Part shown: positions 7,291-11,343 of the stretch, in pieces | Numbering within the stretch: position 1 is the stretch's first letter | Layout: each line of letters starts with the position of its first letter | From: Hyphomonadaceae bacterium | Lineage (GTDB): Bacteria > Pseudomonadota > Alphaproteobacteria > Caulobacterales > Hyphomonadaceae | Assembly: GCA_947478925.1 (NCBI GenBank) | Contig: CANJXY010000005.1 | Coordinates: 1-56,570 of the forward strand | Direction: 5' to 3' | Length of the DNA: 56,570 nucleotides | Notes under the pieces: generated by a model | Databases searched by the model: none | What the model saw: the letters and a program-made list of their open reading frames with translations, nothing else | What the model was told of the DNA's origin: nothing | Translations under genes and position numbers: made by a program

Positions 7291-8373
7291 ATGCAGTTCA
7301 AGACTTTTGCGCTTGGCGTTGTCGCCGTAGCTGTCCTCGCGCCCGTCGCGCTGGCGCAGGAAGCCGCCCCGTATGTTCGTCCCTACTGGTGGGACAAGCC
7401 GGTGGTGGAAGGACTTGGCCGCGCGCTGATCGAGGTTGCGCCCAATCGGGCGCGCTTCGATGTCGCCTTCGTCGAGACCGACGCCAAGTCGGAAGACGCG
7501 ATGAAGAAAGCCGTGCAACGGTCCAAGATTGCCTATGACGCCATCCGGAAAGTCGCTGGCGACAAGGCGCGCGTGACGACCAGCGTCAACGTCACGGCGT
7601 TCTACAAACAATACAAGGACAAGGACGGCCTCGTGCAGTCCAACAACCGCGCCGACCAGGTCGACGGCTACGAGGCGCGCGTGTCGATGACGGTGGACCT
7701 CATCGACCCGTCTCTTGCTGGTCGCGCACGCGCCGCCGCGCTGATCCTCGGGCCGCAGTCGGTCAACCCGGTCTACATTTATCTGCAACAGACCCCCGAG
7801 ATGCAACGCCATGCGCTCGACGAAGCCGCCAAGGATGCGCGCCTACGCGCCCAGATCACCGCGTCGGCCGCCGGTGCGCGCCTCGGCGATATTCTGGTCG
7901 TGCATGAGGGCAGTGAGTCGTGCCTCGGCAACTGGTCCACCACCCAGGTCGCCCGTGTTATCGATCCGGACAACGCCTATCGCTACGGCGCACCCATGGC
8001 GCCGCCTCCACCGCCGCCCCCACCACCGCCTCCCCCACCCCCCCTCGCCTCCGGCACGGTTGGCAGAAGGACGATTGCGGCGTCGGAAAAGGATCTGGCG
8101 GCGCTGGACCTGCCGAGCGATGCAGGGCCGCAAACGATGCAGTCGAGCGTCTGCGTAATCTATACACTCGTGAAGTGGGTTCCCTGCCTGTTCTGGCGGC
8201 ACGGAATGCCTACCCGTTCGGCTTGCCGCGTGGGCGCCTCCGCCACAGGGGCGAACATTTGCAGCCGGTACTGCAAGTCCGGGCGAGTGGCGGTTGCCTT
8301 CCCGGTACGGAGAGCTACAGCTTGCCGCGTGGCGCGTGGGGTCATTGATGCCGGACGTTTTTGTTTCCTATAA
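7291..8373 (+). CDS. SIMPL-domain periplasmic protein with run-on C-terminus
   Basis: Residues 1-22 are a signal peptide ending ALA-QEA. The SIMPL (DUF541) domain follows (VEGLGRALIEVAPN, VNVTAFYKQYKD, ASAAGARLGDILVVHEG). A run of 14 prolines (238-251) precedes a conserved-looking tail DLPSDAGPQTMQSSVCVIYTL, where family members normally stop. Here the frame runs on for about 65 Cys- and Arg-rich residues that look like translated intergenic DNA, and ends at TAA 8371-8373, 26 nt inside the TIR gene. Loss of the original stop by point mutation or a small indel near 8165-8175 is the simplest reading. Start: AGGGGA precedes the ATG. Function of SIMPL proteins is poorly known (envelope stress in some). 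Confidence 0.75.
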   Translation: MQFKTFALGVVAVAVLAPVALAQEAAPYVRPYWWDKPVVEGLGRALIEVAPNRARFDVAFVETDAKSEDAMKKAVQRSKIAYDAIRKVAGDKARVTTSVNVTAFYKQYKDKDGLVQSNNRADQVDGYEARVSMTVDLIDPSLAGRARAAALILGPQSVNPVYIYLQQTPEMQRHALDEAAKDARLRAQITASAAGARLGDILVVHEGSESCLGNWSTTQVARVIDPDNAYRYGAPMAPPPPPPPPPPPPPPLASGTVGRRTIAASEKDLAALDLPSDAGPQTMQSSVCVIYTLVKWVPCLFWRHGMPTRSACRVGASATGANICSRYCKSGRVAVAFPVRRATACRVARGVIDAGRFCFL

Positions 8374-9862
8374 TCGCGAGGACCTACCGGTCGCGCAGCG
8401 GGTTGTCGACGGCCTGGTCCATGAGGGACTCAACGTCTGGCTCGATATGGAGCTTAAGGCTGGCGAGAATTACGACGAGATCACCGAGGAGCGGCTGCGC
8501 GCGGCAAAGGCCGTCGTTGTATTGTGGTCGAGCCGGTCGGTAAAATCGCGGTGGGTACGCGCGGAGGCCACGATCGGTCAGCGCAAGAGCACGCTCGTCC
8601 CGGCGATGATCGAGGACTGCGACCGGCCTGTGATGTTCGAGCTGATCCAGACCACCGACCTGTCGAAATGGGAAGGCGACCGCGCCGATCCGAACTGGCG
8701 CAAGCTGGTGGAGACCATCCGCGAGCGTATCAAGGCAGCGCCGCCGGGGCCGCTGCTCCAGGAAGGCGGCGTGAAGCGCCCGACGAAAAAGAACGGCAAA
8801 CCTAAGACGCCGCCCAAGCAAGTTGCGATGCGCAAGGAGCACCTCCAGAAGAAGCGCGGCATCGGCATGGGAGGCATTCTTGTGCTGTTGCTGCTGTTCA
8901 TCGCGTCGACGATTGGCGGGCTCTATGTGTGGCGACCGCAACAGGTAAGTGATCTCATTGCATCGCTAATGCAAACCGGCGCCGCTAGCGATCCTAATTC
9001 AGCGCCGACGCAAACAGCGGCGGGGACGCCGCCTGCCGCCACGCCCATGATGGCTGCAGGAACACTGCCGGATACGCCCGCCGAGGCGTCGCTCGAAGCC
9101 GCGGGGACGCCGAAACCCGCAGAACCCGTGGCCGACATGCGCGGGCCCGCGCCAGCGGCGAGCACGTTCCGCGACTGCGATGGCTGCCCGCTGATGTTGA
9201 ACGTCGCCGGCGGCACGTTCCTGATGGGCGCGCCTGATGACGAGCTTGGCCGCAACTCCTGGGAAGGTCCGCAGCGCAAGGTCGCGATGGCGCCTTACGC
9301 GATCAGCATCAGCGAAGTGACCTACGAAGAGTGGGACGCGTGCGTCGCCGACGCCGGCTGTGGCAAGTACACGCCGAAGGATAACGGACAGGGCCGCGGC
9401 GAGCAGCCAGTCGTCAACGTTTCGTGGAAGGATGCCGCCGCCTACGCTGCATGGCTCACCAAGAAGACCGGCCGCGTCTATCGCCTGCCATCGGAAGCAG
9501 AGTGGGAATACGCCGGTCGCGGCGGCACGACGACGCCGTTCTGGTGGGGTGCGATGAACGATCCCACGAAGACAGGATCGAACACGTCGGCGCAGGCGGT
9601 CGACACGTTGGCGGCAAACGCACTTGGTCTCGTCGGCGTTACTGGCAATGTGCGCGAGTGGGTGCAGGACTGCTACGTCAACACATTCGCGAAAGCGCCG
9701 CTGGATGGGCGTTCGGTTGAAGTTGCGAAATGCGCGCAGCGTGTGATGCGTGGCGGTGCCTATTCCGATGCCGTCGAAGCGCTGCGCATAGCTGCACGCA
9801 CGCGCAACGACCCGACCAAGCGGGACACGCGCACGGGATTCAGGATCGCGTCGGCGCCTTGA
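8348..9862 (+). CDS. TIR - transmembrane - SUMF1/FGE-fold fusion protein
   Basis: A 504-residue protein. Residues 1-130 form a TIR domain (FVSYNREDLPVAQ, NVWLDMELKAG, VVVLWSSRSV, RWVRAEA), with Glu73 at the position of the catalytic Glu of NAD-cleaving TIR domains. A basic linker and one membrane helix (about 171-195) follow, then a Pro/Ala-rich spacer, then a SUMF1/formylglycine-enzyme-like C-type-lectin fold (277-502: GGTFLMGAP, SEVTYEEWDACV, PVVNVSWKDA, RLPSEAEWEYAGRGG, GNVREWVQDCY, RVMRGGAYSD, GFRIAS). The C-terminal segment lacks the cysteines used by true FGE, so the domain is probably a sensor or binding module. Likely topology: TIR inside, SUMF1 outside. ATG 8348 has GGGG upstream. 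Confidence 0.88.
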   Translation: MPDVFVSYNREDLPVAQRVVDGLVHEGLNVWLDMELKAGENYDEITEERLRAAKAVVVLWSSRSVKSRWVRAEATIGQRKSTLVPAMIEDCDRPVMFELIQTTDLSKWEGDRADPNWRKLVETIRERIKAAPPGPLLQEGGVKRPTKKNGKPKTPPKQVAMRKEHLQKKRGIGMGGILVLLLLFIASTIGGLYVWRPQQVSDLIASLMQTGAASDPNSAPTQTAAGTPPAATPMMAAGTLPDTPAEASLEAAGTPKPAEPVADMRGPAPAASTFRDCDGCPLMLNVAGGTFLMGAPDDELGRNSWEGPQRKVAMAPYAISISEVTYEEWDACVADAGCGKYTPKDNGQGRGEQPVVNVSWKDAAAYAAWLTKKTGRVYRLPSEAEWEYAGRGGTTTPFWWGAMNDPTKTGSNTSAQAVDTLAANALGLVGVTGNVREWVQDCYVNTFAKAPLDGRSVEVAKCAQRVMRGGAYSDAVEALRIAARTRNDPTKRDTRTGFRIASAP

Positions 9863-9885
9863 CGCCGCCGCATTCTTCGATCAAA

Positions 9886-10067
9886 CACCGCGGCCTTGGA
9901 TCAACCTCCTTTCGGGAGCGGCCGATGAAACGGCTCTACGAAAATCAGATTGCGAGTTTCGCTCAGCCGGTGCTGGGCGAACCCGATCGCATGGAGGGAT
10001 AGGTCCAAGGGTCAGCAGAGCTGATCTAAACCGAACCCTCCGCGCAGTGCGCCGGAGGGTTTTTTCT
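9886..10067 (+). ncRNA. Candidate structured RNA upstream of rtcB, 16S 3'-end-like
   Basis: No convincing gene occupies 9863-10131. Positions 9894-9902 (CCTTGGATC) pair with 10002-10010 (GGTCCAAGG) in a 9-bp helix with one G-U. CCTCC (9905-9909) can extend it with GGAGG (9993-9997). Inside are hairpins GCCG/CGGC (9921-9934), GCGA/TCGC (9952-9962) and either CAGC/GCTG (9964-9975) or GGG-CGAA-CCC (9975-9984). A GTCAGC/GCTGAT hairpin (10011-10025) and an intrinsic terminator (10035-10065) follow. The 5' strand GGATCAACCTCCTTTC differs from the 16S rRNA 3' end by one inserted A. A weak TTGACG (9859-9864) could start transcription near 9892. It may be an independent sRNA or the rtcB leader; no known RNA family was recognised. 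Confidence 0.5.
10035..10065 (+). terminator. Intrinsic terminator upstream of rtcB
   Basis: ACCCTCCGCGC pairs with GCG-C-CGGAGGGT (11 bp with one bulged C, AGT loop) and is followed by six T. It ends the structured segment 67 bp before the rtcB ATG. The 5' arm (10035-10046, ACCCTCCGCGCA) also has a perfect 12-nt complement downstream at 10098-10109, and its CCCTCC can pair with GGAGGG at 9993-9998 upstream. Alternative folds are therefore possible. Confidence 0.8.
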
Positions 10068-10131
10068 TGCTTGATTGCAAGTGACAACCACCCGGGATGC
10101 GCGGAGGGTCTGCGAACAAGGAAACGCAGAC

Positions 10132-11343
10132 ATGAGCACGTTTGAAGTGTTCGAAACGGCCAAGGGTGGCCGTATCAAGGCCTGGGTGAAAGGCGTTCCC
10201 GTCGAGGACAGCGCCCGGGAGCAGCTCGAAAATGTGGCGGGATTGCCGTTCGTACATTCCCACCTCGCCGTCATGCCCGACGTCCACTTCGGACGCGGCG
10301 CGACCGTCGGCTCGGTGATCCCGACCCGCGGCGCGATCATCCCTGCCGCTGTCGGCGTCGACATCGGCTGCGGGATGATGGCGGTGGAAACCACGTTGCG
10401 CGCAGAGCACCTGCCGGACTCGCTGGCGAAGCTCCGCTCGGAAATCGAGCGCAAGGCGCCGGCGGGTGTGGGACGCGGCGGGGAATGGGGCACGACCCCG
10501 GACTCCGTTATCTCGCGCTGGCGCAATTCGGATCTTGAGGAACGCCTTGATCGCATACGCGACAAGCACTGCAAAATTCCGAACCACAAGGTGGGCGCAC
10601 AGCTCGGCACGCTTGGCTCGGGCAACCACTTCATCGAAGTCTGTATCGATGAGCGCGGGTTTGTCTGGGTGATGCTGCACTCAGGCTCGCGCGGCACGGG
10701 GAACCAGATCGGGCAGTACTTCATTGAGATGGCCCGCAAGGCGCTCGAGAAGCGCGTGCTCGGCTATAACGTGCCAGATCAGGATCTCGCCTTCTTCGTC
10801 GAAGGCGAGAGGCTGTTCGACGACTACATCGAAGCGGTTGGTTGGGCGCAGGATTATGCCCGCGCCAACCGCGAAGCGATGATGGAGCGGACGCTTCAGG
10901 CGATGCGCGAGCATCTGCCGAAGTTCAAGCTCGGCAGGCACGCGGTGAACTGCCACCACAACTATGTGGAGAAGGAAAACCACTTCGACGCCGACGTGTG
11001 GGTGACCCGCAAGGGCGCCGTGCGCGCAGGCCTCGACGAACTCGGGATCATCCCGGGATCGATGGGCGCAAAGTCGTTCATCGTGCGCGGCAAAGGCAAT
11101 GCGGACTCATTCTGCTCCTGCTCGCACGGTGCAGGCCGCGCGATGTCGCGCACCAAAGCAAAGGCGACGTTCACGTTGAAGGATCACCGCGAGGCGACCG
11201 AAGGCGTGGAGTGCCGCAAAGACCAGGGCGTGATCGACGAAACGCCGATGGCCTACAAGGACATCGACGCCGTCATCGCGGCGCAGTCCGACCTGATCGA
11301 CGTGGTTCACACGTTGAAGCAGGTTGTGTGTGTAAAGGGCTGA
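10132..11343 (+). CDS. rtcB: RNA-splicing ligase RtcB (3'-phosphate/5'-OH joining)
   Basis: A 403-residue RtcB. Metal and guanylylation residues are in place: MPDVHFGRGATVG, GVDIGCGMM (Asp77, Cys80), GSGNHFIEV (His166), HSGSRGTGNQ (His183), VNCHHNYV (His275/276), and SFCSCSHGAGR, whose His332 corresponds to the GMP-linked His of E. coli RtcB. The enzyme joins RNA 2',3'-cyclic phosphate or 3'-phosphate ends to 5'-OH ends using GTP and Mn2+. It repairs tRNA or rRNA cut by toxin nucleases. The ATG at 10132 has AAGGAAA upstream; the in-frame start at 10075 would add a non-conserved leader. No archease or rtcA is adjacent, and a structured RNA segment precedes it. Confidence 0.96.
   Translation: MSTFEVFETAKGGRIKAWVKGVPVEDSAREQLENVAGLPFVHSHLAVMPDVHFGRGATVGSVIPTRGAIIPAAVGVDIGCGMMAVETTLRAEHLPDSLAKLRSEIERKAPAGVGRGGEWGTTPDSVISRWRNSDLEERLDRIRDKHCKIPNHKVGAQLGTLGSGNHFIEVCIDERGFVWVMLHSGSRGTGNQIGQYFIEMARKALEKRVLGYNVPDQDLAFFVEGERLFDDYIEAVGWAQDYARANREAMMERTLQAMREHLPKFKLGRHAVNCHHNYVEKENHFDADVWVTRKGAVRAGLDELGIIPGSMGAKSFIVRGKGNADSFCSCSHGAGRAMSRTKAKATFTLKDHREATEGVECRKDQGVIDETPMAYKDIDAVIAAQSDLIDVVHTLKQVVCVKG

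Follow-up and report, generated by a model that had tools for sequence, protein, structure and literature searches.

A conserved leader upstream of rtcB in Hyphomonadaceae is probably a ribosome-mediated transcription attenuator

Introduction

Attenuators of amino-acid operons, such as trp, his and thr, follow a four-strand logic in which a leader ORF is combined with 1:2, 2:3 and 3:4 helices. The leader described here resembles them in this logic and in having a leader ORF. It differs from them in that its peptide has no run of a single codon and is unusually diverse instead, in that its strand 2 is part of the ORF itself, 5' of the stop codon, and in that a fifth strand is found 3' of the terminator.

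The closest known case is PA5471.1-armZ of P. aeruginosa (PMC12057347, PMC13041342), where armZ (PA5471), a gene of an RtcB-like ligase, is subject to attenuation by the leader peptide PA5471.1 after ribosome stalling. Several antibiotics that target the ribosome induce armZ, as does the loss of the tRNA CCA-adding enzyme, which also causes such stalling, and finished translation of the leader has been proposed to favour the 3:4 terminator, while stalling would prevent it. A leader ORF, alternative hairpins, an intrinsic terminator and a gene of an RtcB-like ligase are what the two systems have in common. On the other hand, armZ acts mainly as a MexZ anti-repressor of an efflux pump, whereas the gene studied here is an ordinary rtcB; moreover, a diversified peptide of 25-39 codons and strand 5 belong to the present leaders, and the likeness noted here is one of logic.

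Another way of switching rtcB on upon tRNA damage is provided by RtcR, a sigma54 activator with a CARF domain that controls rtcBA in Enterobacteria; in Salmonella, tRNA fragments induce rtcBA via RtcR (PMC7790460). RtcR is a protein sensor of cyclic-phosphate tRNA ends that works at a sigma54 promoter, and it is missing from all leader-bearing genomes of the family considered here. This raises the questions of how RtcR-less bacteria sense the need for RtcB and which damage RtcB mends there. For Hyphomonadaceae the leader would offer a concrete answer at the level of RNA, and single loci extend it to related bacteria of the Caulobacterales, Maricaulaceae and Rhodospirillales.

In the open-access literature on rtcB in connection with attenuation, leader peptides, uORFs or structured RNA we found only the armZ parallel, and Rfam at the gathering threshold gave no match in the window or in 12 related loci (sub-threshold matches to rnk_leader, with 16.9 of 50 bits, and to CC2171 were judged to be due to chance). 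The element is real and conserved, and as an rtcB attenuator it has, apparently, not been described so far.

Results and Discussion

The rtcB leader carries a promoter, a short ORF and an intrinsic terminator

The window, i.e. the whole 56.6-kb stretch of DNA that was analysed, has all the features described below on its plus strand. The leader promoter (9859-9887) is composed of a -35 box, TTGACG (9859-9864), a 17-nt spacer and a -10 box, CAAACA (9882-9887). Measured from it, the leader RNA is about 170 nt long, with the uORF, a hairpin, the terminator and the rtcB start following in this order. Strand 1, CCTTGGATC...CCTCC (9894-9909, with CCTCC read at 9905-9909), is followed by a Shine-Dalgarno (SD) sequence, GGGAG (9914-9918), placed 6 nt 5' of an ATG; most relatives have a GGAG-like motif here. 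This ATG opens the leader ORF (uORF, 9925-10002), which has a near-fixed start and stop in relatives and encodes a peptide of 25 amino acids, MKRLYENQIASFAQPVLGEPDRMEG, ending with a stop codon at 10000-10002. Strand 2, GGAGGG (9993-9998), falls within the last uORF codons, ATG GAG GGA, and is the proposed antiterminator partner of strand 3, while, according to folding and covariation, strand 1 pairs with the uORF end, GGAGG...GGTCCAAGG (9993-10010).

A small hairpin is predicted by folding between the uORF and the terminator (10009-10027). The intrinsic terminator itself (10034-10065) consists of strand 3, ACCCTCCGCGCA (10035-10046), as the 5' arm, strand 4, GGAGGGT (10054-10060), as the 3' arm, and a T-tract (10060-10065). 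A translatable uORF therefore stands 5' of an intrinsic terminator, which in turn stands between this uORF and rtcB. A simple terminator scan left the element unlisted; its stem and T-tract are nonetheless plain in the sequence, and both arms and the T-tract are near-invariant across the aligned leaders. Beyond the terminator lie strand 5, TGCGCGGAGGGT (10098-10109), which is complementary to strand 3, the ribosome-binding region of rtcB (10110-10131) and rtcB (10132-11343), whose 403-aa product is an RNA ligase of the RtcB family (PF01139, 432 bits) related to proteins with solved RtcB structures; as in the armZ case, then, the gene under control encodes an RtcB-family ligase.

The pairing strands had been pointed out in an earlier sequence-only reading of this DNA, which placed every one of them correctly. 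The perfect 12-nt complementarity between strands 3 and 5 that it reported was confirmed: within the window the 12-mer finds a perfect match at exactly two sites, namely the two arms, against 0.03 expected from shuffles. Folds of this region are also more stable than those of shuffled sequences (z -5.45 for 9985-10140 and z -3.55 for 9863-10070). It may be added that a gene for a TIR-like domain fused to a formylglycine-generating-enzyme-like (FGE) domain (8351-9862) is located directly 5' of the leader promoter, and that the -35 box shares nucleotides with the stop codon of this gene.

The leader is strictly linked to rtcB

A covariance model built on the 3' part of the leader matched 50 of the 105 Hyphomonadaceae genomes. 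All full-length matches were situated immediately 5' of rtcB, the one exception among the matches being weak and partial (G010), and the model matched no genome among the 49 that have no rtcB. The rtcB-bearing genomes left unmatched were six: four with RtcR, one with a divergent leader visible by eye (L039) and one without a leader (L035). A DNA search gave the same picture within the genus of the window, since the leader was found in 12 other genomes, in a single copy each and always before rtcB, and was absent from the two members of the genus that have no rtcB. Inspection of individual loci revealed leaders of the same plan preceding rtcB in Caulobacter, Brevundimonas, Maricaulaceae and several Rhodospirillales-like genomes; the covariance model is family-specific, and a class-wide sample added just two weak matches.

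The promoter is a part of this conserved unit. TTGAC with a -10-like CATAC or CAAAC box occurs in nearly all of 49 Hyphomonadaceae leaders, and the promoter-to-terminator distance is near-fixed, from -173 to -189 nt in almost all of them. One finding that could have spoken against control by the leader was a separate rtcB promoter within 10067-10125; a scan found none there, and the conserved promoter sits 5' of the leader, though the scan was a crude one, which missed this upstream promoter too. Another was a lack of conservation of the strands, and strands 2, 3 and 5 are all conserved in Hyphomonadaceae leaders.

As a stem-loop about 170 nt 3' of the TIR/FGE gene, the element could be the ordinary terminator of that gene, with the repeats arising by chance. 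We find this hardly credible, because the leader accompanies rtcB across genera, at many Hyphomonas loci the rtcB-leader terminator is preceded, at some distance, by a separate one, and the 12-mer repeat is far above chance; linkage to rtcB, together with the 3:5 covariation described below, already contradicts it.

Two further arrangements were noted at single loci. At L064, a small ORF of no assigned function is placed between the attenuator and rtcB, and the leader may control a two-gene operon there. In another genome, the intact rtcB is followed on its 3' side by a second, broken copy of a C-terminal part of the gene (G097:C159:2239-2461).

The leader and RtcR exclude each other

RtcR is present in exactly four of the 105 family genomes, and the rtcB gene of all four is devoid of the leader; these four genomes fall in two genera that also have leader-bearing species. 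Conversely, no PF06956 match indicative of rtcR was found in the genome of the window or in any leader-bearing genome of the family. Among the 56 family genomes with rtcB, the leader was found in 50 of 52 without RtcR and in none of four with it (Fisher test, about 4e-5, with relatedness not removed). In the class sample, RtcR occurred in 8 of 23 rtcB genomes, and the leader was found at none of the RtcR-adjacent rtcB genes. It appears, then, that rtcB loci have two alternative control modules, either RtcR (with a Y RNA at some loci) or the leader-peptide attenuator, and that the leader would stand in for RtcR control.

At two RtcR-type rtcB loci of Hyphomonadaceae (L149 and L151, in genomes G029 and G085), a YrlA Y RNA (Rfam RF02553) and tRNA-like genes are found upstream. 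One genome (G392, locus L157) carries two paralogs of rtcB; an attenuator-like leader precedes one of them, with a small ORF of about 70 codons in between, and RtcR accompanies the other. As to prfH, the partner of the ribosome-repairing RtcB2, the genome of the window gave only sub-cut-off matches, to frames of 344 and 373 aa, which we took as the ordinary release factors RF1/RF2.

The uORF is kept open and encodes an unusually diverse peptide

The uORF, which the sequence-only reading had missed, points to the ribosome as a sensor. Its frame is open in 44 of 44 leaders, while the two other frames contain stops in 40 and 22 of them, respectively; its start and stop are at near-constant positions and an SD is present in the relatives compared. 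Purifying selection on the peptide was tested and was not found (pN/pS 0.84), and the sequence of the peptide is not conserved between leaders.

What distinguishes these peptides is their composition. They contain on average 15.6 kinds of amino acids, as compared to 13.3 in gene stretches, and, with random codons of equal base composition as the reference, 28 peptides that are less than 45% alike have a mean diversity z of 1.5. The excess is confined to the uORF frame, the other two frames giving z of 0.22 and -0.07. When gene N- and C-termini, spurious short ORFs and codon-position composition served as references, combined Z values of 6.5-9.1 were obtained, which still contain shared ancestry and should be read as strong rather than exact; composition had no part in the choice of the uORFs, which relied on their position and on an SD-like motif. 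Relative to gene N-termini, more of the leader peptides contain Asn (89% vs 34%), Tyr (82% vs 31%), Gln (89% vs 58%), Asp (89% vs 66%) and Cys (54% vs 22%), and His and Ile are under-represented.

We infer that such a diverse peptide samples many tRNAs. As it is unconserved and yet unusually diverse, the likely signal would be a broad loss of functional tRNAs or ribosomes, not a shortage of one amino acid, and such a loss is the kind of damage that RtcB repairs. A more specific version, which we put forward tentatively and with less than even confidence, is that of a broad tRNA-integrity sensor: selection would act for codon diversity, so that almost any cut tRNA, especially one reading Asn, Tyr, Gln, Asp, Glu or Lys codons, stalls the ribosome and turns the repair enzyme on, with strand 5 locking the read-through message open. 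Tuning an attenuator through a leader peptide selected for amino-acid diversity, in place of a single repeated codon, would be novel.

One may ask whether the ORF is merely incidental to a structured RNA, riboswitch-like or protein-bound, that is switched by a ligand, by damaged RNA or by RtcB itself. Covarying helices are indeed conserved in the leader, and the peptide sequence is not. However, the idea leaves aside the frame that is open in all 44 leaders, with its SD, start and stop, as well as a diversity excess seen in that frame only; in addition, no conserved unpaired aptamer core exists besides ATGGAGG and the terminator, and no Rfam family matches. We regard it as unlikely.

Helices around the terminator

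We consider it likely that the element is a ribosome-mediated transcription attenuator controlling rtcB. In the mechanism that we propose, transcription would begin near 9890, from the conserved promoter, with a ribosome translating the 25-codon uORF. Upon reaching the stop codon (10000-10002) the ribosome would mask strand 2, the 3:4 terminator would form and rtcB would be off; if it stalled earlier, strand 2 could pair with strand 3, the terminator would fail and rtcB would be transcribed.

The earlier claim of three mutually exclusive helices stood for two of them at the level of covariation. The helix between strand 1 and the uORF end had 91.7% of cells paired in 28 leaders from outside the genus of the window (shuffled maximum 86.8%), with several two-sided changes, including one pair seen as GC, AU and CG; its signal is weaker within that genus. 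The 3:5 helix is the second one, and the equivalent of the small hairpin between the uORF and the terminator covaries as well, with five of seven pairs changed on both sides. For the 2:3 helix, what is seen is conservation of the strands. ATGGAGG in the strand 2 region is near-invariant in 41 leaders, and strands 2 and 3 are both near-invariant in Hyphomonadaceae, leaving covariation uninformative for this pair; folding predicts the helix, but its duplex energy in the family is no better than that of shuffled sequence (z -0.23).

Folding of the nascent RNA is consistent with a role of the ribosome. In RNA made up to strand 3, with strand 4 still unmade, the mean probability that strand 3 pairs with the uORF end is 0.79-0.97 in the genus, and it drops to 0.00 with a ribosome at the stop codon. 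In the leader of the window, strand 3 pairs with the uORF end in nearly all states except the one with a ribosome on the stop, while without any ribosome the outcome is ambiguous between clades. At equilibrium, 2:3 is less stable than the completed terminator in all leaders tested, the gap being mostly 2-15 kcal/mol, and the antiterminator must therefore act kinetically or with help.

The near-invariance of GGAGG at the uORF end, combined with its unexceptional energy with strand 3 in Hyphomonadaceae, might also be explained if GGAGG were an SD-like pause or re-initiation site and translation of the uORF were regulated instead of terminator pairing. This is very unlikely in our opinion, since outside the family the base beside the strand 2 core varies in step with strand 3 (C-G in 8 outside-family leaders, G-U or A-U in 43 Hyphomonadaceae leaders), and no properly spaced start codon follows GGAGG in the genus of the window or in Hyphomonas.

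Taken with the conserved promoter, the leader ORF, the terminator, the strict linkage to rtcB and the mutual exclusion with RtcR, these helices, predicted to exclude one another, support attenuation-type control of rtcB. The switch-like control suggested by the sequence-only reading is in this respect well backed by comparative evidence. The part of it that did not hold is the role of strand 5 as a competitor in the terminator decision, in which it is unable to take part because RNA polymerase must pass the terminator before making strand 5.

Strand 5 probably acts after read-through

The 3:5 helix is 97% paired, and its covariation score is 0.159 as compared to 0.086 in shuffles, with none of 500 shuffles reaching it. 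Column 84 of the alignment varies in this helix (GC 16, AU 6, UA 2); the terminator helix as drawn leaves this column unpaired, and folds of the genus place it in or beside the loop, and for this reason 3:5 appears to be under selection of its own. In Caulobacter an 11-bp 3:5 helix is kept with different letters. It is also the 3:5 helix, and not the terminator, that constitutes the minimum-energy fold of the short stretch 9985-10140.

In read-through RNA from the genus of the window and from Hyphomonas, the probability of 3:5 is 0.94-0.96 vs 0.01-0.05; it is less dominant in genera of the g3 type and hardly formed in other families. With its dominance limited to some genera, strand 5 would be an add-on of a part of the lineage, lying outside the core switch. 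Given the conserved 3:5 covariation, its role is probably a post-read-through one, consisting in refolding of the mRNA: in the read-through message of Hyphomonadaceae, strand 5 would capture strand 3, so that the terminator hairpin stays open, and might also present a fixed structure beside the ribosome-binding site of rtcB.

Perfect 12-nt complementarity just 5' of the rtcB SD, conserved through covariation, would also be expected if the terminated leader were a small RNA whose terminator arm, acting in trans, binds strand 5 in a separately promoted rtcB mRNA and controls its translation. Such an mRNA would need a promoter of its own, but the scan shows none 3' of the terminator and the sole conserved promoter precedes the leader; besides, the released RNA would hold strand 3 inside the terminator hairpin, and most other attenuator-bearing families do without strand 5. 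Pairing in trans is thus quite improbable, and we prefer to see strand 5 as refolding the read-through mRNA in cis.

The vicinity of the rtcB start has some structure of its own. In the window (10109-10131), the rtcB SD sits in a hairpin loop, with AAGGA lying in the loop of GTCTGCG...CGCAGAC (about 10108-10131). In many Hyphomonadaceae relatives (L018, L040, L041, L059, L065 and others), a short hairpin of varying sequence occupies the interval between the SD and the AUG of rtcB, as if to shorten the spacing.
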